A DNA stretch of 64,000 nt from Aliivibrio fischeri ATCC 7744 = JCM 18803 = DSM 507 (GTDB taxonomy: Bacteria; Pseudomonadota; Gammaproteobacteria; Enterobacterales; Vibrionaceae): contig NZ_CP092712.1 in NCBI RefSeq assembly GCF_023983475.1, positions 496,001 through 560,000 on the forward strand, in the 5' to 3' direction. Shown here in pieces: positions 1 to 8,119 of the stretch (the first letter of the stretch is position 1; every line of letters begins with the position of its first letter). The notes under the pieces were generated by a model. The model was not told where the DNA came from. It saw only the letters and a list, made by a program, of their open reading frames with translations, and did not search any database. A program made the translations under genes and the position numbers.

Positions 1-46
1 GAAACATTTTTAGTTGGTTTAGAAATAAGAATTTAGAGGTAGTGTT

Positions 47-1384
47 ATGGGTACTCAATTTCGTATGGATTCGGTTCCAGGCTCTTTAGTTGTTGTTGGT
101 GGCAGCTATGAACCTTGGTTAGCCGTTTTAGAACAAGTAGGTTGGCGTTGTCATCGTTGCTATGATCTTCGAGCAGCTCAAGCTCTGTTTGACGAGATTG
201 GGCCATGTATTGGTATTGTTGATTTAAGCCAAGATGATTTTAGTCTTAATGGCATTGCAACATTAGTAAATAACAATAAGCAAGTTCGTTGGATGGCTTT
301 CATCCGTGAGTCTCAGCTAAGTTCAGATACTATTTGCCAGTTCATTGTAAACTTCTGTATTGATTTCTTCACTGCACCGATTCCAGATGCTCAATTATTA
401 AGTACGATTGGTCACCAGCTAGGTATGCTTAAGCTAGAGCGTAAAGTATGGCCTAATATGGGTAATAAATCGGATCTAGGTATTTTAGGTGAAGCGCCTG
501 CGGTGAAACGTTTACGAGATCAAATTCGCCGTGTTGCTCCAACAGATGTTTCTATTCTTATTTCTGGTGAAAGCGGTGTAGGTAAAGATGCGGTAGCAAA
601 AGCAGTTCATGAATCATCAGGCCGTAATAAAGGTCCATTTGTTTCATTAAATTGTGGTTCGTTATCTGAAAGCAAGATTGAGCAGGAGCTGTTTGGTTCT
701 CATTCTTCGTCACCGGAAGAATCAAAATTATTCCAAGCCAATGGTGGTACATTATTTTTAAATGATATTAATGATTTGCCAGCTAGTCAGCAGCAGCATT
801 TATTACGATTCCTACAAGAAGGTAATATTGAGACTGAAAAAGGTTTTGTTGATTTAGATGTTCGTGTAATTGTTGCAAGCCACATTGATTTAGAAAAAGC
901 GATTGAAGAAGGCAGCTTTAAAGAAGAGTTGTATTATCGTTTAAATGTATTACGTATTCATGTTCCGTCTTTAAAAGAGAGAAGTTCAGATATCTCGGTT
1001 TTAGCAGAGCATTTCTTACAGCGTTATGCAAAAGAATACAATACACAAGCAAGAACGTTCCCTGAAGAAGCATTACAAACCATGCTACATTATCAATGGC
1101 CAGGTAATGTTCGTGAATTGGTAAACCAAGTGAAACGTGCTGTATTACTTGCCGATAGCATGACAATTGATCTTGAACATTTAGATTTACCACAACGCAG
1201 TGAAACTAAACGTAGTTTACGTGTTATCCGTGAAAACTCTGAGCGAGATGCATTATTGATGGTATTAGAATCTCATGATGGTCAAGTATCTTCAGCGGCA
1301 AAAGAGCTGGGTGTTTCACGAGCAACTATGTATCGTTTATTGAATAAACATAATTTAATTTCAGAGCCGAGAAGCTATAGCTAA
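47..1384 (+). CDS. vpsR: VpsR-like atypical enhancer-binding regulator
   Basis: This is a 445-residue NtrC-family regulator with a receiver-like domain (about 13-130), an AAA+ ATPase domain (about 145-370) and a Fis-type helix-turn-helix (about 412-436). Asp59 sits where the phospho-acceptor of VpsR lies. Walker A is GESGVGKD (174-181). The GAFTGA loop that contacts sigma-54 is absent: ELFG (214-217) runs into a serine-rich stretch. Walker B reads LFLND instead of the usual acidic pair. Vibrio cholerae VpsR has the same anomalies; it binds cyclic di-GMP and activates exopolysaccharide and biofilm genes with sigma-70 polymerase. The neighbouring mutH/rppH fits the Vibrio gene order. An AGAGGT ribosome site lies 6 bases before the ATG. 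The name rests on length, motif losses and synteny. Confidence 0.88.
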   Translation: MGTQFRMDSVPGSLVVVGGSYEPWLAVLEQVGWRCHRCYDLRAAQALFDEIGPCIGIVDLSQDDFSLNGIATLVNNNKQVRWMAFIRESQLSSDTICQFIVNFCIDFFTAPIPDAQLLSTIGHQLGMLKLERKVWPNMGNKSDLGILGEAPAVKRLRDQIRRVAPTDVSILISGESGVGKDAVAKAVHESSGRNKGPFVSLNCGSLSESKIEQELFGSHSSSPEESKLFQANGGTLFLNDINDLPASQQQHLLRFLQEGNIETEKGFVDLDVRVIVASHIDLEKAIEEGSFKEELYYRLNVLRIHVPSLKERSSDISVLAEHFLQRYAKEYNTQARTFPEEALQTMLHYQWPGNVRELVNQVKRAVLLADSMTIDLEHLDLPQRSETKRSLRVIRENSERDALLMVLESHDGQVSSAAKELGVSRATMYRLLNKHNLISEPRSYS

Positions 1385-1399
1385 CCGAGCTTTTGATTG

Positions 1400-1440
1400 A
1401 AAAAATAGGCTTACCTTGAATTAGGTAGGCCTATTTTTTT
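1400..1440. terminator. bidirectional terminator between vpsR and mutH
   Basis: An inverted repeat of about 15 bp (AAAAATAGGCTTACC against GGTAGGCCTATTTTT, one G-U pair) is flanked by A and T runs on both sides. It can therefore stop vpsR on the plus strand and mutH on the minus strand. The mutH stop codon begins inside its T run. Confidence 0.85.
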
Positions 1441-2107
1441 AGCTGAAGAATGAAGTTAATATAGAATGAGTAAATTGAGTTTTTAAATAAAAACCGCGAG
1501 GTAGCGTTTTTATCGGTTGCCCATTTTCACCATAAGCCTCAGTTAATGCTTGGCTGTTTGCTGCTTTAGGTCTTAATTGAAGAACTTCGCCATGTTTTGC
1601 TGTAATTGACTCAACCTTACCGAGCACAATTAAATCCATTAACTCTTCCCAATCTTGTTTTAATTGTTGTTCTTCTTCTAAAGAAGGTTGCCATAAAACT
1701 GGATATCCAACATGACGATCCCCTACAGGGATCTCTCTTTCTCCTTCTACAGGGATCCATAAAACATGAGCAAGCTTATGACGAACATGCGATTCTTCCC
1801 ATTGTAAGCTATGAACGCCTGTTAATGGGGCAACACAAACAAAGGTGGTTTCTAATGGTTTGCCAGTATAGCTGATTGGAATGGTTTTTAATTCGACTCC
1901 AAGATCAATGAAATCAGGTAGAGGTTTACTACCTGCTGAAGCGCCTAAATGCCATTCTAATAATTGACCAACCCAGCCTTTATCTCGCTTTAAGTTTTCA
2001 GGTACAGGTATGTTTGCTTGCTCTGCCAACTCAGATAGCGTATAGCCTGCAATGCTTTCTGATCGCTGTAATAATTCATCAATAGTATTTGGTGGTGGTA
2101 AGCTCAT
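1439..2107 (-). CDS. mutH: DNA mismatch repair endonuclease MutH
   Basis: MutH nicks the unmethylated strand at hemimethylated GATC sites when activated by MutS and MutL, which directs mismatch repair to the new strand. The 222-residue protein has the catalytic motif [11 protein letters not shown] with Asp65, Glu72 and Lys74, spaced as Asp70/Glu77/Lys79 in E. coli. Length matches the family (about 220-230). It converges with vpsR and is divergent from rppH across a long non-coding block rich in GATC. Its presence implies a Dam-methylating organism. Confidence 0.96.
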
Positions 2108-2704
2108 AAAGACTCTTCAACATGATTGAACGAATAGATTATCATATTATCAACATTATTTTTTGACCTAATTTGGATCTTAGTAAGTTATCCACAATAG
2201 TGTATATATTTTATTCATCTCTTATTTTTCTGGATCCATATACAGTGCTTTAATTTTGAATAACTCATTGACTTTTAGCTCTTATACTTAATCAGATAGC
2301 CTTAATTGTGGGTAATTAGCTTGTTGGTGGATCTTTAACCGATCTGTGTTTATATTATCCAACCACTTTTTCAGAGAAAAGATCAAAGTAAAGATCCTGA
2401 ATTTAACTTGTTGGTTTTATTGTTTTTTATGTATTTACTGTCTCTGTTTTTATTTTGTATTGAAAGAGCTAACTTTTATCGTTTGTGATTTATTTTTAGC
2501 TTCTGCACAAAGTTATACACAGAAAAGGTGAATAAATGTGGCTTATATCTCATTGTTGTGTTGATAAGTTAAGCAGTGATTAAAAGTTATTCAGAAAATC
2601 AGGTTATTTTGGTAAAACGTGACAAGAAAGCGTGATCCTGTTTGCTCAAAGAGCCGATCTGTGAAAAAATCAGAGTCAATATAAGTTTATGATGAGGTCA
2701 TCCA
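2108..2704. promoter_or_regulatory. 597-bp non-coding block, DARS2-like DnaA-box cluster
   Basis: No credible gene lies here. In E. coli the DnaA-reactivating sequence DARS2, which converts ADP-DnaA to ATP-DnaA, lies in this same mutH-rppH (ygdP) interval. The block holds an exact DnaA box TTATCCACA at 2188-2196 and another, TTATACACA, at 2513-2521. Next to the second are two inverted one-mismatch boxes: GGTGAATAA (2527-2535) and TGTTGATAA (2559-2567). The three boxes in 55 bp resemble the three-box DARS core. Eight GATC sites fall at 2176, 2233, 2330, 2341, 2381, 2393, 2634 and 2656, against about two expected by chance. CCGATCTGTG is repeated at 2339-2348 and 2654-2663. I could not place convincing IHF or Fis sites by eye. 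Function is inferred from position and boxes. Confidence 0.7.
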
Positions 2705-3217
2705 GTGATAGATGGCGATGGTTTCCGCCCGAACGTCGGGATAGTGATATGTAATAGCCATGGTCAAGTATTCTGGGCGAAGCGATACGGACAGCATTCG
2801 TGGCAATTTCCGCAAGGTGGTATTGATGATGGAGAGACTCCAGAACAAGCCATGTACCGTGAATTATACGAAGAAGTAGGTCTGACAAAAAATGATGTTC
2901 GTATTTTAGCAAGCAGCCGTCATTGGCTACGATATAAATTACCGAAACGTCTAGTTAGATGGGACTCTAAACCTGTCTGTATCGGACAAAAACAAAAATG
3001 GTTTTTGTTACGCTTAGAATGTGATGAATCCAAGGTTAATATGCAAAGAGATCGCTCGCCTGAATTTGATGGTTGGCGATGGGTAAGCTACTGGTACCCT
3101 GTAAGACAAGTGGTTTCATTTAAGCGTGATGTTTACCGTCGAGCACTAAAAGAGTTCGCGGTGATCGCTATGCCGTTTAAGGAACGAAAATTTAAAAGGA
3201 AAGGTAAAAAAGGTTAA
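2705..3217 (+). CDS. rppH: RNA pyrophosphohydrolase RppH (NudH)
   Basis: RppH removes pyrophosphate from 5'-triphosphorylated mRNA ends, opening the 5'-end-dependent RNase E decay route. The 170-residue protein carries a complete Nudix box at 38-60 (G-x5-E-x7-REL-x-EE-x-GL). The start is GTG in the context GAGGTCATCCA-GTG and gives the family N-terminus [10 protein letters not shown]. The C-terminus is strongly basic (KRKGKKG). It is followed 38 bp later by ptsP, the same rppH-ptsP order as in E. coli. Confidence 0.95.
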
Positions 3218-3255
3218 GCGGTCGATACCTTATATAACCTTAAGGATTGGCAAGC

Positions 3256-5517
3256 ATGCTTACTCAACTCAGGGATATAGTTGATCACGTAGCTAAAGCG
3301 GAGTCTCTTGATGATGCTTTAGCGTTGCTCGTGAAAAATACTCGTAACTCTATGCATACAGAGTGTTGCTCAGTCTATTTGATGAGTAATGATAACCTGC
3401 GCTTAGAATTAATGGCGACAGAAGGATTAAAAGCGAAACCCAAGACCGTTTCATTAGGTATTGATGAAGGTTTAGTTGGATTGGTTGCACGCAGTTGTGA
3501 GCCGCTAAACTTAGCTAATGCTTCTGTACACCCTTCATATAAATACATTCCTAGTATTGCCGAATATAAGTTTAATTCCTTTCTGGCAACCCCGATTATT
3601 TACCGACGTCAAAACCTTGGTGTACTTGTTGTACAGCAAAAGGAAAAACGTCAGTTTACTGAAGTTGAAGAATCCTTTTTAGTCACCTTATCTGCGCAAC
3701 TTGCAGTTGTACTTGCTCATGCTAAAGCTCATGAAAGTTGGTCGATTCAATTACAACCTCAATCGATTGAACAAAAGCAATTCAAAGGTATCTCTGCATC
3801 AAATGGTGTCGCTATTGCACCTTTGTGGTTTGATGATGCGCAACCCAGAATAGAATCCATTCTACCAAGTTCATGCCTTGATATAGAGCAAGAGCAAGAT
3901 CGTTTAGGTACTGCGGTTGAGTTAGCTTTAAAGGATTTCCGCCGAGCTAAAAAACGGTTTGAACAAGAGCTAAATACCGAGACGTTGGCTATTTTTGATC
4001 TTTTCACTCACTTATTAAATGATCCTATGTTGAAGGGGGATCTGAAAAAACAGATCAACCAAGGTGATTCTGCTGAGTGGGCATTGCGTCAAGTTATTGA
4101 GTCATATGCAGGGCGTTTTGAAAAAATGAGTGATTCATACCTCAGTGAACGAGCGAATGATGTTCGTGAGCTAGGGCAGAGATTACTTTATTTTTTAAAT
4201 TATGAAGGTAAGTTAGAGCTGGATTTAGCTCATCCCGTGATTTTAGTTACGACTCAGCTGACCGCTTCTATGTTAGCGAGTGTTCCTCAAGATAAATTAA
4301 AAGCCGTTATTTCGCTTGAAGGTGCGGCAAACTCTCACGCAGCCATTTTATCAAGAGCACTTGGTATCCCTGCCATTATGGGGGTGGAGTTTAACCCAAC
4401 TCACTATCATCAAAAATTAGCGATTGTTGATGGCTATAGTGGCGCTTTATATATCAAGCCGACAGAAGCGCTAATTCAAGAATATACAGAACTACAAAAT
4501 GAGGAGTTAGCCCTTTCTGAATTAATCACTCAGGATCTTGATAAACCTACATTTACACGTGATGAGCATCAAATGAAAATTTATTTGAATGCTGGGTTAA
4601 GTGCCGACACGAGTATTGCTGTTAATCAGGGTGTTGATGGCGTTGGGTTGTATCGAACTGAAATTCCTTTTTTATTGCAACAGCGATTCCCATCGGAAGA
4701 AGAGCAATATCTACAATACAAAACTATTTTAGAAACGTATCCGAAAAAGCCTGTGATTATGAGGACGTTAGATATCGGTGGTGATAAGCCATTACCGTAT
4801 CTGCCTATTGAAGAAGAAAATCCATTTTTAGGTTGGCGTGGTATTCGCTTTACTTTAGATCATCCTGATATCTTTCTTTTGCAATTAAAAGCGATGGTAA
4901 GAGCAAACATAGGTAATGGTAATTTATCCATTATGTTACCTATGATTTCAGGCTTACCCGAATTAAAGCAAGCAAGAAAGCTTATTAATCAAGCTTATGA
5001 AGAAGTGCTTGGTGAATCTGAAGGGGATTTTTCGCAACCTCGTATAGGTATGATGATAGAAGTGCCTTCTATGCTCTATTTGTTACCGAGAGTTGTTGGA
5101 TTAGTGGATTTTATTTCTGTAGGTACTAATGACTTAACTCAATACCTTTTAGCTGTAGATCGAAATAATGCACGAGTTTCACATGTCTATGAATCTTATC
5201 ATCCCGCCGTGTTACTCGCGTTAAAGCAAATAATTGATACGGCAAATCAATATAAATTACCTGTTAGTGTTTGTGGGGAGCTTGCGGGGGATCCAATTGG
5301 TTGCCTGTTACTGCTTGGTTTGGGCTATCAAAGTTTAAGTATGAATACCTCTAACGTAGCCAAAGTAAAATACATTATTAGGCAGGTATCGCAGCAAGAA
5401 GTTGAACAATTAGTTGCGACTCTTTTACATCACGATGATGCAGAGCAAATTTTAACTGATATGATTAGCTTCTTTGAAGAGAAAGAACTCTCAGGGTTTA
5501 TTCGAGCAGGCAGGTAA
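3256..5517 (+). CDS. ptsP: phosphoenolpyruvate-protein phosphotransferase PtsP (enzyme I-Ntr)
   Basis: This is enzyme I of the nitrogen-related PTS, which passes phosphate from PEP to NPr. It has an N-terminal GAF sensor domain (about 18-160), an enzyme I N-terminal region, a phosphohistidine domain with GAANSHAAILSRALG and His361, and a C-terminal PEP-binding TIM barrel (about 430-720). I chose ATG 3256 (MLTQLRDI) because AAGGA at 3242-3246 precedes it by 9 bases; an upstream in-frame TTG at 3247 is unlikely. The stop overlaps the next ATG by one base (TAATG), so translation is probably coupled. The NPr and IIA-Ntr genes are not in this window. Confidence 0.95.
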   Translation: MLTQLRDIVDHVAKAESLDDALALLVKNTRNSMHTECCSVYLMSNDNLRLELMATEGLKAKPKTVSLGIDEGLVGLVARSCEPLNLANASVHPSYKYIPSIAEYKFNSFLATPIIYRRQNLGVLVVQQKEKRQFTEVEESFLVTLSAQLAVVLAHAKAHESWSIQLQPQSIEQKQFKGISASNGVAIAPLWFDDAQPRIESILPSSCLDIEQEQDRLGTAVELALKDFRRAKKRFEQELNTETLAIFDLFTHLLNDPMLKGDLKKQINQGDSAEWALRQVIESYAGRFEKMSDSYLSERANDVRELGQRLLYFLNYEGKLELDLAHPVILVTTQLTASMLASVPQDKLKAVISLEGAANSHAAILSRALGIPAIMGVEFNPTHYHQKLAIVDGYSGALYIKPTEALIQEYTELQNEELALSELITQDLDKPTFTRDEHQMKIYLNAGLSADTSIAVNQGVDGVGLYRTEIPFLLQQRFPSEEEQYLQYKTILETYPKKPVIMRTLDIGGDKPLPYLPIEEENPFLGWRGIRFTLDHPDIFLLQLKAMVRANIGNGNLSIMLPMISGLPELKQARKLINQAYEEVLGESEGDFSQPRIGMMIEVPSMLYLLPRVVGLVDFISVGTNDLTQYLLAVDRNNARVSHVYESYHPAVLLALKQIIDTANQYKLPVSVCGELAGDPIGCLLLLGLGYQSLSMNTSNVAKVKYIIRQVSQQEVEQLVATLLHHDDAEQILTDMISFFEEKELSGFIRAGR

Positions 5518-6320
5518 TGACAGTGGATTTTGGTTCGCTTTTTGTTTTATATCTTTTGCTAGGTAGTCTCGTTGGCGTAATGGCTGGATTACTTGGAATT
5601 GGTGGTGGTTTGTTAGTTGTTCCCGCTTTATTGTGGTTATTACCTCAAGCAGGAATCGATAGTTCAATCGTAATGCAAATGGCATTAGGTACTTCACTTG
5701 CAACGATTATTTTAACTTCAACGTCATCTGCGTTGAACCATTTACGTTTAGGTAATGTCGAAGTAGCACTTATCCGTAGTTTGGCTCCTGGAGTTATTGC
5801 TGGTGGCTTTCTTGGTAGCTACGTTGCAGAATTAATTCCAAGCCAATATTTACCAAAAGTATTTGGCGTTATTGTACTTCTGCTTGCTTTACAAATGTTA
5901 TTAGCGCTTAAGTTTACAGCAACCAGAACTATGCCATCTCCGCTTAAAATTGCCGCTTCTGGTGGGGTTATTGGTGTTGTATCAAGCTTAGCTGGAATTG
6001 GTGGTGGTTCATTAACGGTACCTTATTTAAGTTTTCATGGCGTAGAAATGAGAAAAGCCATTGGTAGTTCTTCTTTGTGCGGAACCTTGATAGCACTTGC
6101 TGGCATGATAGGTTTTATTCTTCATGGAGTACAAGTAACTAACTTGCCTTCAATGAGTTTAGGGTATGTTTACTTACCTGCATTATGTGGTATTGGTGTT
6201 ACGTCTATTTTGACCACCAGAATTGGCGCAAAGTTAACATCGCATTTGCCGACATCAACGTTAAAAAAAATCTTTGCCATATTTCTAGTATTTATTGGCA
6301 GCAAAATGTTTTTAGGATAA
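5517..6320 (+). CDS. TSUP/TauE-SafE family membrane permease
   Basis: A 267-residue protein with about eight hydrophobic segments. It shows the internal duplication typical of the TSUP (DUF81) family: a glycine-rich GLLGIGGG at 24-31 and a second SLAGIGGG at 157-164. Family members are proposed to export or import sulfonates, sulfite or other small organosulfur anions. Nothing here identifies the substrate. It is translationally coupled to ptsP by TAATG and lies 12 bp before lgt, so it belongs to the rppH-ptsP-lgt operon. Confidence 0.85.
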   Translation: MTVDFGSLFVLYLLLGSLVGVMAGLLGIGGGLLVVPALLWLLPQAGIDSSIVMQMALGTSLATIILTSTSSALNHLRLGNVEVALIRSLAPGVIAGGFLGSYVAELIPSQYLPKVFGVIVLLLALQMLLALKFTATRTMPSPLKIAASGGVIGVVSSLAGIGGGSLTVPYLSFHGVEMRKAIGSSSLCGTLIALAGMIGFILHGVQVTNLPSMSLGYVYLPALCGIGVTSILTTRIGAKLTSHLPTSTLKKIFAIFLVFIGSKMFLG

Positions 6321-6332
6321 AAGAGAGTAGTC

Positions 6333-7184
6333 ATGAGTCAGGGGTATTTGAACTTCCCACATATAGATCCTGTATTAATTGAGATCGGTCCATTAGCGGT
6401 TCGTTGGTATGGATTAATGTATTTATTTGGTTTTATGTTTGCATTATGGCTTGCTAATAAGCGTGCAGATAAGCCAAATAGTGGTTGGACACGAGATCAG
6501 GTTAGCGACCTATTGTTTGCTGGATTTTTAGGTGTAGTGATCGGTGGCCGTGTTGGCTATGTGTTATTTTATAATTTCGGCTACTTCTTAGATAATCCAC
6601 TGTACTTATTTGAAGTATGGACCGGTGGTATGTCCTTCCATGGCGGTTTATTGGGTGTTATCTCAGCGATGCTTTGGTATGGATATAAGAATAACCGTAG
6701 CTTCTTTACGATTGCAGATTTCGTTGCACCATTAGTACCATTTGGTCTGGGAGCCGGTCGTTTAGGTAACTTTATGAATGGTGAGTTATGGGGACGTGTT
6801 ACCGATGTGCCTTGGGCTATGGTGTTCCCAACTGGCGGTCCTTTCCCTCGACATCCTTCTCAATTATATGAATTTGCTCTTGAAGGTGTTGTTTTATTCT
6901 TCATTCTAAATTGGTTTATTCGTAAGCCTCGTCCATTAGGCGCAGTTTCAGGTTTATTCCTATTTGGATATGGTACATTCCGATTCTTGGTCGAGTATGT
7001 ACGTCAACCTGATGCACAGTTAGGCTTGTTTGGTGATTGGATTTCAATGGGACAAATTTTGTCACTACCAATGGTGATTGGTGGTTTGTTAATGATGCTT
7101 TGGGCATTTAAACGTAACCTTTTTGCGACTGATGTAGAGCAAAATAAGACTAAATCAAAGAAATCGAAACAGAAAGCAAAATAA
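6333..7184 (+). CDS. lgt: prolipoprotein diacylglyceryl transferase Lgt
   Basis: Lgt moves diacylglycerol from phosphatidylglycerol to the lipobox cysteine of prolipoproteins, the first step of lipoprotein maturation in the inner membrane. The 283-residue protein has seven likely membrane spans. It carries the family motifs HGG (103-105, catalytic His103) and [10 protein letters not shown] (142-151, Arg143 and Asn146). The C-terminus is lysine-rich. A GAGAG ribosome site precedes ATG 6333. A strong terminator follows. The later lipoprotein enzyme LspA is encoded near 17 kb. Confidence 0.96.
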
Positions 7185-7214
7185 GCTAGAATAGCGTTAA
7201 TGATGATTTATAGT

Positions 7215-7243
7215 AATGGCCTCTCGTTTGAGGCCATTTTTTT
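7215..7243 (+). terminator. intrinsic terminator after lgt
   Basis: A perfect 9-bp stem AATGGCCTC / GAGGCCATT with a 6-base loop is followed by a T run. It ends the rppH-ptsP-lgt transcript just before thyA. Confidence 0.88.
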
Positions 7244-7267
7244 AACTAATTTTAAGAGAGCAGACCC

Positions 7268-8119
7268 ATGAAGCAGTATTTAGATTTATGCCAACGCATT
7301 GTAGATGAAGGAACTTGGATCGAAAACGAGCGCACAGGAAAGCGTTGTTTAACGGTGATTAATGCGGATTTAACTTATGATGTAGAAAATGGTGTTTTCC
7401 CTCTTGTTACAACGCGTAAGAGCTTTTGGAAAGCAGCGGTCGCTGAGATGATTGGCTATATTCGTGGTTATGATAACGCAGAAGACTTCCGCAAGATTGG
7501 CACTAAAACATGGGATGCGAATGCGAATTTAAATGATGCATGGCTCAATAACCCTCATCGTAAAGGTGATGATGATATGGGTCGAGTATATGGTGTGCAA
7601 GGTCGTGCATGGGCAAAACCAAATGGTGAGTTTGTCGATCAACTGAAAAAAATCATTGATGATTTAAGTCAGGGAATTGATGATCGTGGTGAAATTTTAA
7701 ATTTTTATAACCCTGGTGAGTTTGATATGGGTTGTTTGCGTCCGTGTATGTACTCACATCATTTTTCATTATTAGGTGATACATTATACCTAAATAGCAC
7801 TCAACGCTCTTGTGATGTGCCTCTAGGCCTAAACTTCAATATGGTTCAAGTTTATTTTCTATTAGCTATCGTGGCACAAATTACAGGGCATAAAGCAGGT
7901 AAGGCGTACCATAAGATTGTAAATGCACATATTTATGAAGACCAACTTGAGTTAATGCAAAATGTACAGCTAAAACGTGAACCGTTACAAGCGCCGATCT
8001 TTAAAATAAACCCTGAGATTAAGTCATTAGAAGATTTAGAAACATGGGTAACTATGGATGACTTTGAAGTGGTTGGCTATGAAAGCTATGAGGCTATAAA
8101 GTATCCTTTCTCTGTTTAA
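7268..8119 (+). CDS. thyA: thymidylate synthase ThyA
   Basis: ThyA methylates dUMP to dTMP using methylene-tetrahydrofolate. The 283-residue protein has catalytic Cys160 in [12 protein letters not shown] and the nucleotide-binding [13 protein letters not shown] (179-191). It is about 20 residues longer than E. coli ThyA and diverges around the folate-binding half, a variant I believe is usual in Vibrio. A GAGAG ribosome site lies before the ATG. The lgt-thyA order is as in E. coli. It is flanked by terminators on both sides and is probably transcribed alone. Confidence 0.95.

Follow-up and report, generated by a model that had tools for sequence, protein, structure and literature searches.

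Is the DNA between mutH and rppH in Aliivibrio fischeri an orthologue of the DnaA-reactivating element DARS2 of E. coli, and if so, which of its distances are held fixed and how far does its design extend beyond the family? The question was raised by a sequence-only reading of the window, that is, the whole stretch of 64,000 nucleotides analysed here, whose first letter is position 1 of the coordinates below. That reading had pointed to a lone perfect DnaA box, a tight trio of further boxes and eight GATC sites in a gene-free block.

Results

The block and its genomic setting

The genome belongs to the Vibrionaceae and consists of contigs of 2,970,859 and 1,532,347 bases (C1 and C2), the first of which contains the window. 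The list of open reading frames places divergent genes on either side of a block of 597 bp (2108-2704): mutH on the minus strand (1439-2107, 222 residues), of which the block is the upstream region, and rppH on the plus strand (2705-3217, 170 residues, with a GTG start at 2705). E. coli MutH matches this genome with 65% identity at C1:497445-498101, and RppH is, among named relatives, closest to its counterparts in Aliivibrio (98-99%). The block thus occupies the same gene interval as E. coli DARS2, as had been claimed, and it is indeed gene-free, since the only listed reading frame of at least 60 residues within it has 61 residues (2346-2531). An Rfam scan of window positions 1-8000 gave no structured-RNA match at the gathering score. 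A second, weak match of the block elsewhere in the genome covers 56 bp at 77%. Two genomes of Vibrionaceae are reduced in size (2.1 and 2.6 Mb), and their rppH matches are interrupted by in-frame stops.

On the assumption that ori1 is next to mnmG and that the contig is circular, the element is about 506 kb from ori1, or 34% of half of contig 1, as against about 957 kb (41%) in E. coli. The distance between mnmG and rppH, worked out by hand, is 475-673 kb in 16 of 32 complete or near-complete Vibrionaceae genomes, these 16 being the ones that need no wrap round the contig end. We draw no weight from the chromosomal position of the element.

DnaA boxes and GATC sites exceed chance

With the consensus TTWTNCACA and mismatches counted, the block holds 11 DnaA boxes at no more than one mismatch, three of them perfect (2188, 2513 and 2660). 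The corresponding chance means are 2.5 and 0.14, and the observed counts were reached by none of 2000 first-order Markov copies; slices of 597 bp from the whole window contain 1.39 boxes on average, and 0.16% of them reach 11. Perfect boxes are not enriched over the window as a whole (7 found against 11.65 expected). A chance cluster of boxes is rejected by this simulation together with the conservation described below. The eight GATC sites are all present (2176, 2233, 2330, 2341, 2381, 2393, 2634 and 2656), a high number for this window (slice mean 1.9, with eight reached by 0.9% of slices), but only two of them are well conserved, 2330 being kept in 47 and 2341 in 36 of 57 Vibrionaceae sequences, whereas each of the other six is found in 13-18 of the 57.

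The three-box core is identical in layout to that of E. coli DARS2

Box scanning and comparison of triads define a core of three boxes: an outer box TTCTGCACA (2501-2509, plus strand), a perfect central box TTATACACA (2513-2521, plus strand) and a facing box TTATTCACC with one mismatch (2527-2535, minus strand). The core at 2501-2535 runs TTCTGCACA-AAG-TTATACACA-GAAAA-GGTGAATAA and that of DARS2 in E. coli K-12 runs TTCTTCACA-ACT-CTATCCACA-GAAAA-GGTGAATAA; box order, orientation and the 3- and 5-bp spacers are identical. According to the relevant passages of PMC8682772, boxes I and II of the E. coli element form an opposed pair. The triad in the window has two mismatches, while of 300 Markov copies one reached three and none reached two. 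Apart from it, the 64-kb window has a single place with fewer than seven mismatches, namely a five-mismatch reading of the same boxes on the opposite strand.

The trio that had been proposed at 2513, 2527 and 2559 is real as far as the boxes go, but the third member of the core is the plus-strand box at 2501 rather than the minus-strand box at 2559. The latter, TTATCAACA (2559-2567, one mismatch), is a further conserved box 46 bp past the central one. E. coli has TTATAAACA at the same +46 offset, and a box with at most one mismatch occupies this position in 58 of 62 Vibrionaceae and 35 of 36 Enterobacterales. Besides 2501-2509, the sequence-only reading had missed the inverted box at 2307-2315, treated below, and a perfect inverted box, TTTTTCACA (2660-2668, minus strand), which was found by box scan and alignment close to the rppH start and may belong to the rppH promoter. 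The box scan and the Vibrionaceae alignment also reveal a conserved box-like TTATTCAGA at 2587-2595 (plus strand).

Box B, box V and the IHF-type site keep their distances from the core

On the mutH side of the core, box B (TTATCCACA, 2188-2196, plus strand) lies 325 bp from the central core box. It is perfect, as had been noted, but it cannot be called isolated, since its equivalent is 320-326 bp from the core (sd 1.17) in all 62 Vibrionaceae loci, with a perfect sequence in 50 and one mismatch in 12. Across the same 62 loci the distance from mutH to box B varies from 61 to 349 bp (sd 78) and that from the core to rppH from 190 to 194 bp (sd 1.0). Among the Enterobacterales, box B reads TTATCCACA in 36 of 36 loci and is placed at 313-316 bp in 35 and at 296 bp in one. 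Box B is the centre of a second triad (at most five mismatches) in 30 of these 36 loci and, with the Vibrionaceae groups as we assigned them, in 7 of 15 Photobacterium-group loci; no second triad surrounds it in the 18 Aliivibrio-group, 9 Enterovibrio-group or 20 Vibrio-group loci. Four loci of Rheinheimera and Alishewanella, with gaps of 376-377 bp, yielded no box B.

The equivalent of box V, TTACCCACA (2307-2315, minus strand), has one mismatch in the window and is perfect in about half of the Vibrionaceae; at no more than one mismatch it is found in 59 of 62 Vibrionaceae, and it is perfect in 36 of 36 Enterobacterales. It is followed, at 8 bp in both species, by an unstranded block TTGGTNGATCTTT (2324-2346) that aligns with the E. 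coli stretch past box V. From published passages on the E. coli element we infer that its Fis sites FBS2-3 lie in this very stretch. At the FBS2-3 position of the window the Fis consensus GNNYANNNNNTRNNC has no match at one mismatch or fewer, even though the E. coli-like block is there. A putative IHF-consensus site, TAACTTGTTGGTT (2404-2416, plus strand, one mismatch), starts 109 bp before the central core box. The IHF consensus is matched at no more than one mismatch in 34 of 62 Vibrionaceae compared with 10 of 62 shuffled segments, the remaining 28 having matches with two or three mismatches only, and the best site falls at -109 or -108 in 35 of the 62.

Relative to the central box, the offsets in E. 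coli and in the window are -316 and -325 for box B, -197 and -206 for box V, -180 and -189 for the TTGGTNGATCTTT block, -99 and -109 for the IHF-type site, and +46 in both for the inverted box. Everything leftwards from the IHF site is therefore displaced outward by 9-10 bp, which is about one helical turn, so that the direction of the bend would be kept. In the sections of PMC4245941 on site placement, moving the E. coli IHF site outward by 10 bp was milder than by 5 bp, though shifts of either size towards the core did harm.

The element travels with mutH

To follow the core we used 111 rppH loci (80 named ones, 30 further family members including this genome, and E. coli), which were selected through RppH and not through the core. 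A triad with at most four mismatches lies upstream of rppH in 104 of them. The seven misses comprise one locus with only 199 bp of contig ahead of rppH and six Morganellaceae (Providencia, Photorhabdus, Morganella and Proteus) that have no mutH beside rppH and no triad at five or fewer mismatches in the 3 kb upstream of rppH. At the mutH loci of these Morganellaceae, a triad (at most four mismatches) adjoins mutH in 6 of 6, and in 6 of 6 a second triad (at most five mismatches) follows 313-316 bp further on. Because these bacteria, in which the two genes are apart, keep the triad at mutH, the element goes with mutH and not with rppH; the same six, with no triads at rppH, lead us to reject an rppH promoter role for the core.

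An alignment of 57 distinct Vibrionaceae mutH-rppH gaps shows a conserved footprint that covers, on the left, box B (2185-2197), a LexA-like palindrome (2230-2245), box V (2307-2315) and the block 2324-2346 and, on the right, the IHF-site stretch from 2398, the core (2501-2541), the boxes at 2559 and 2587, and 2656-2676. Lack of conservation among relatives would have spoken against the proposed element; the boxes are conserved, and so is their location.

In an order-wide sample of 40 hand-picked mutH-upstream regions, one to five per family, a triad was found in 20 at no more than six mismatches and in 17 at no more than three. Of the 20 regions lacking a triad, seven have rppH no more than 230 bp from the mutH end, five have gaps of 390-1085 bp and the remaining eight have no rppH in the stretch. 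With half of the sampled mutH regions lacking a triad, the mutH location has been lost or was never gained in several families.

The LexA-like palindrome of the footprint (unstranded, CTG-N10-CAG) lies between box B and box V, and in the 57 aligned sequences CTG-N10-CAG is kept in 24 and TG-N10-CA in 56. This putative damage-responsive site inside the DARS2 block probably serves mutH. In V. parahaemolyticus, LexA binds the mutH promoter, according to a passage of PMC3323433.

Partner elements and factors in the same genome

A Fis orthologue is encoded, with 81% identity to E. coli Fis over 98 residues, and IHF genes are presumably present as well. A DARS1-type triad lies upstream of uvrB (C1:1033495-1033528), with a good facing pair and a poor outer box; it has two mismatches to the search pattern and four over all three boxes. 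The uvrB upstream region of E. coli likewise holds a DARS1-type triad. A third triad is found on the second contig (C2:1105503-1105547), upstream of a reading frame resembling an FAD-type oxidoreductase.

Triads recur across the Gammaproteobacteria, often at priA

The triad pattern, at no more than two mismatches, was matched in 223 of 276 evenly drawn gammaproteobacterial genomes. When spacers were lengthened by 1 bp as genome-scale controls, the same genomes gave 6 of 276 for the facing pair and 5 of 276 for the outer-central spacer, and triads as a chance product of box-rich genomes are rejected by this difference. In a phylum-wide draw the pattern occurs in 105 of 199 genomes, with several families outside the class having none. 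Neither are the triads a by-product of oriC or dnaA clusters, an explanation that we reject because the E. coli dnaA and oriC stretches contain no triad at six or fewer mismatches, nor do the Aliivibrio mnmG and the following 7.5 kb at five or fewer. Beside the triads of 30 class-wide loci, no protein matching E. coli dnaA, dnaN, mnmG, mioC, mutH or rppH was found.

Eight of these 30 triads lie directly upstream of priA (L122, L123, L124, L136, L137, L139, L140 and L144). PriA was called by NCBIfam for L122, L124, L137, L139 and L144 and by comparison of place for L123 and L136; L140 we take to be priA from its N-terminus, as we recognised it, and from its place in the PriA search. Other triads in the class are directly upstream of xerD (L143), xseA (L130) and tdk (L138). 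These neighbours may lean towards DNA repair and replication genes.

The priA set was then made up of the first 70 listed PriA matches among the 276 genomes, with a query from a genome that was itself found through a triad. A triad with at most three mismatches lies within about 400-500 bp upstream of priA in 44 of the 70, always in the same orientation, while eight other spacings gave 0, 1, 0, 0, 11, 0, 0 and 0 of 70, the 11 belonging to a 5/5 spacing variant. The stretches upstream of priA in E. coli and in the A. fischeri genome contain no triad. Within the 180 bp examined, the IHF consensus is matched at no more than one mismatch in 27 of the 44 modules compared with 14% of Markov copies, and 23 of these 27 best sites start at -108 to -112; this offset of about -110 is the one seen in Vibrionaceae DARS2. 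A perfect Fis consensus starts at -82 to -68 in 20 of the 44 modules and in 0.7% of Markov copies. Part of the conservation in these modules could belong to a divergent neighbour gene (rpmE in E. coli), so the Fis-like palindrome may have another reading.

Discussion

Because the core, the gene linkage, the IHF-type site, box V and the block aligning with the presumed Fis region all match the E. coli layout, we conclude, with a probability of roughly 0.87, that the block is a DARS2 orthologue that would recharge DnaA by the mechanism known from E. coli. By homology with E. coli DARS2, as described in passages of PMC4245941 and PMC8682772, it should speed the release of ADP from DnaA under the control of IHF and Fis. 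ADP-DnaA would bind the core boxes at 2501 and 2513 on the plus strand and at 2527 on the minus strand, and the facing pair 2513/2527 would set two DnaA AAA+ domains head to head and so loosen the ADP. IHF at about 2404 would introduce a bend and, together with Fis bound close to box V (2307-2346), would activate the complex before initiation; apo-DnaA would then leave and take up ATP, giving more ATP-DnaA for the origin of chromosome I. As to box B (2188), we infer from its fixed distance to the core that it probably steadies or tunes the same folded complex. It may tune rather than drive, since boxes IV-VI of E. coli DARS2, presumably including box B, were dispensable for overinitiation from plasmids in the part of PMC4245941 concerned. 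In the DnaA ChIP-seq data excerpted from PMC11317965, three peaks occur at E. coli DARS2, of which peak 2969501 is listed with the double box at box B; the peak table names NC_000913.2, although its oriC values fit the.3 record.

The strongest competing explanation, which we nevertheless consider improbable, is that the boxes form a DnaA-responsive operator for the transcription of mutH, rppH or both, with no nucleotide exchange. The promoters of both divergent genes do lie in the block, as does a LexA-like site that probably serves mutH, E. coli DnaA also controls genes by promoter binding (passages of PMC11317965), and triads elsewhere stand upstream of priA, xerD and tdk. However, about 400 bp separate the mutH start from the core, which remains at that gene when rppH is elsewhere, and the distances of the IHF site, box V and box B are those of E. 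coli DARS2, for which nucleotide exchange is shown in the sections of PMC4245941 concerned. The operator and exchange roles of the block could coexist.

Many DnaA boxes together with an IHF-type site are also what datA has, so that the cluster might instead be a sink for DnaA or a site of ATP hydrolysis, since datA promotes ATP hydrolysis and not ADP release (passages of PMC8682772 and PMC4585315). The location and box order are those of DARS2 and differ from those of datA as described, and we regard this possibility as very unlikely. Least likely of all, to the point of being hardly credible, is an action on chromosome II like that of crtS. With its five GATC sites and a single putative DnaA box (PMC6090056, in the part describing it), crtS offers some resemblance, but the element discussed here is shared with one-chromosome Enterobacterales, six of its eight GATC sites are poorly conserved, and its distance from ori1, if ori1 is next to mnmG, is about 506 kb against the approximately 800 kb given for crtS in V. 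cholerae by the same passages; crtS was judged by position and host range.

The preferred reading remains that of a DARS2 orthologue, and its likeness to the E. coli element extends from the mutH-rppH interval and the identical order, orientation and spacing of the core to the sequence in which box V, the FBS-like block, the IHF site and box B are arranged. It differs in that the Aliivibrio parts from the IHF site leftwards are 9-10 bp further from the core, in that box B has lost its two partner boxes, and in the LexA-like site, which belongs to the Vibrionaceae block. DARS1 of E. coli, in the uvrB promoter, has the same triad architecture at a different gene, and passages of PMC8682772 report no requirement for IHF or Fis there. 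The novelty implied by the sequence-only reading was overstated, since V. cholerae DARS-like sequences at uvrB and mutH are in print (passages of PMC6090056), and a figure legend of PMC8682772 includes V. cholerae among its species. The V. cholerae DARS2-like sequence, likened here by its description, is in the same family and at the same location as the Aliivibrio block. The locus is therefore a DARS2 orthologue in a family in which DARS2 was already known. Apparently new, as far as we have seen, are the rigid distance of box B, the linkage test in the Morganellaceae, the displacement by one turn and, most of all, the triads found across the class with their priA modules. Our searches of the open-licence literature gave no paper dealing with DARS elements located at priA or beyond the E. 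coli group, although one may exist.

A broader proposal, for which we see about as much chance of being right as wrong, is that DARS2 is one instance of an ancestral gammaproteobacterial module for recharging DnaA, in which a triad with rigid 3/5 spacing would be preceded by an IHF site, about 110 bp ahead of its central box, and often by a Fis site about 78 bp ahead of it. This module would be placed at mutH, with a short form at uvrB, in the branch of E. coli and Vibrio and at the priA promoter in much of the rest of the class; the 109-bp IHF spacing of Vibrionaceae would be the older one, and the E. coli spacing of 99 bp would be shorter by one helical turn. If this proposal is true, DnaA recharging, and perhaps the expression of replication-restart genes, would be tied to the initiation cycle in that part of the class too.

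The locus makes it possible to ask, in a host with two chromosomes, whether chromosome I is timed by DARS2, and the comparison reveals which spacings within the DARS2 complex are kept constant in evolution. Among these, the placing of box B is about as strict as that of the core itself, and an in vivo DnaA peak is listed with the E. coli equivalent of this box (PMC11317965). Should the modules at priA prove to be genuine DARS elements, the recharging of DnaA by DNA would be class-wide and not a trait of E. coli-related species, as a passage of PMC4245941 words it, and the repeated association of triads with repair and restart genes would become testable. Sequence comparison suggests that DARS-type switches may be more widespread than described.
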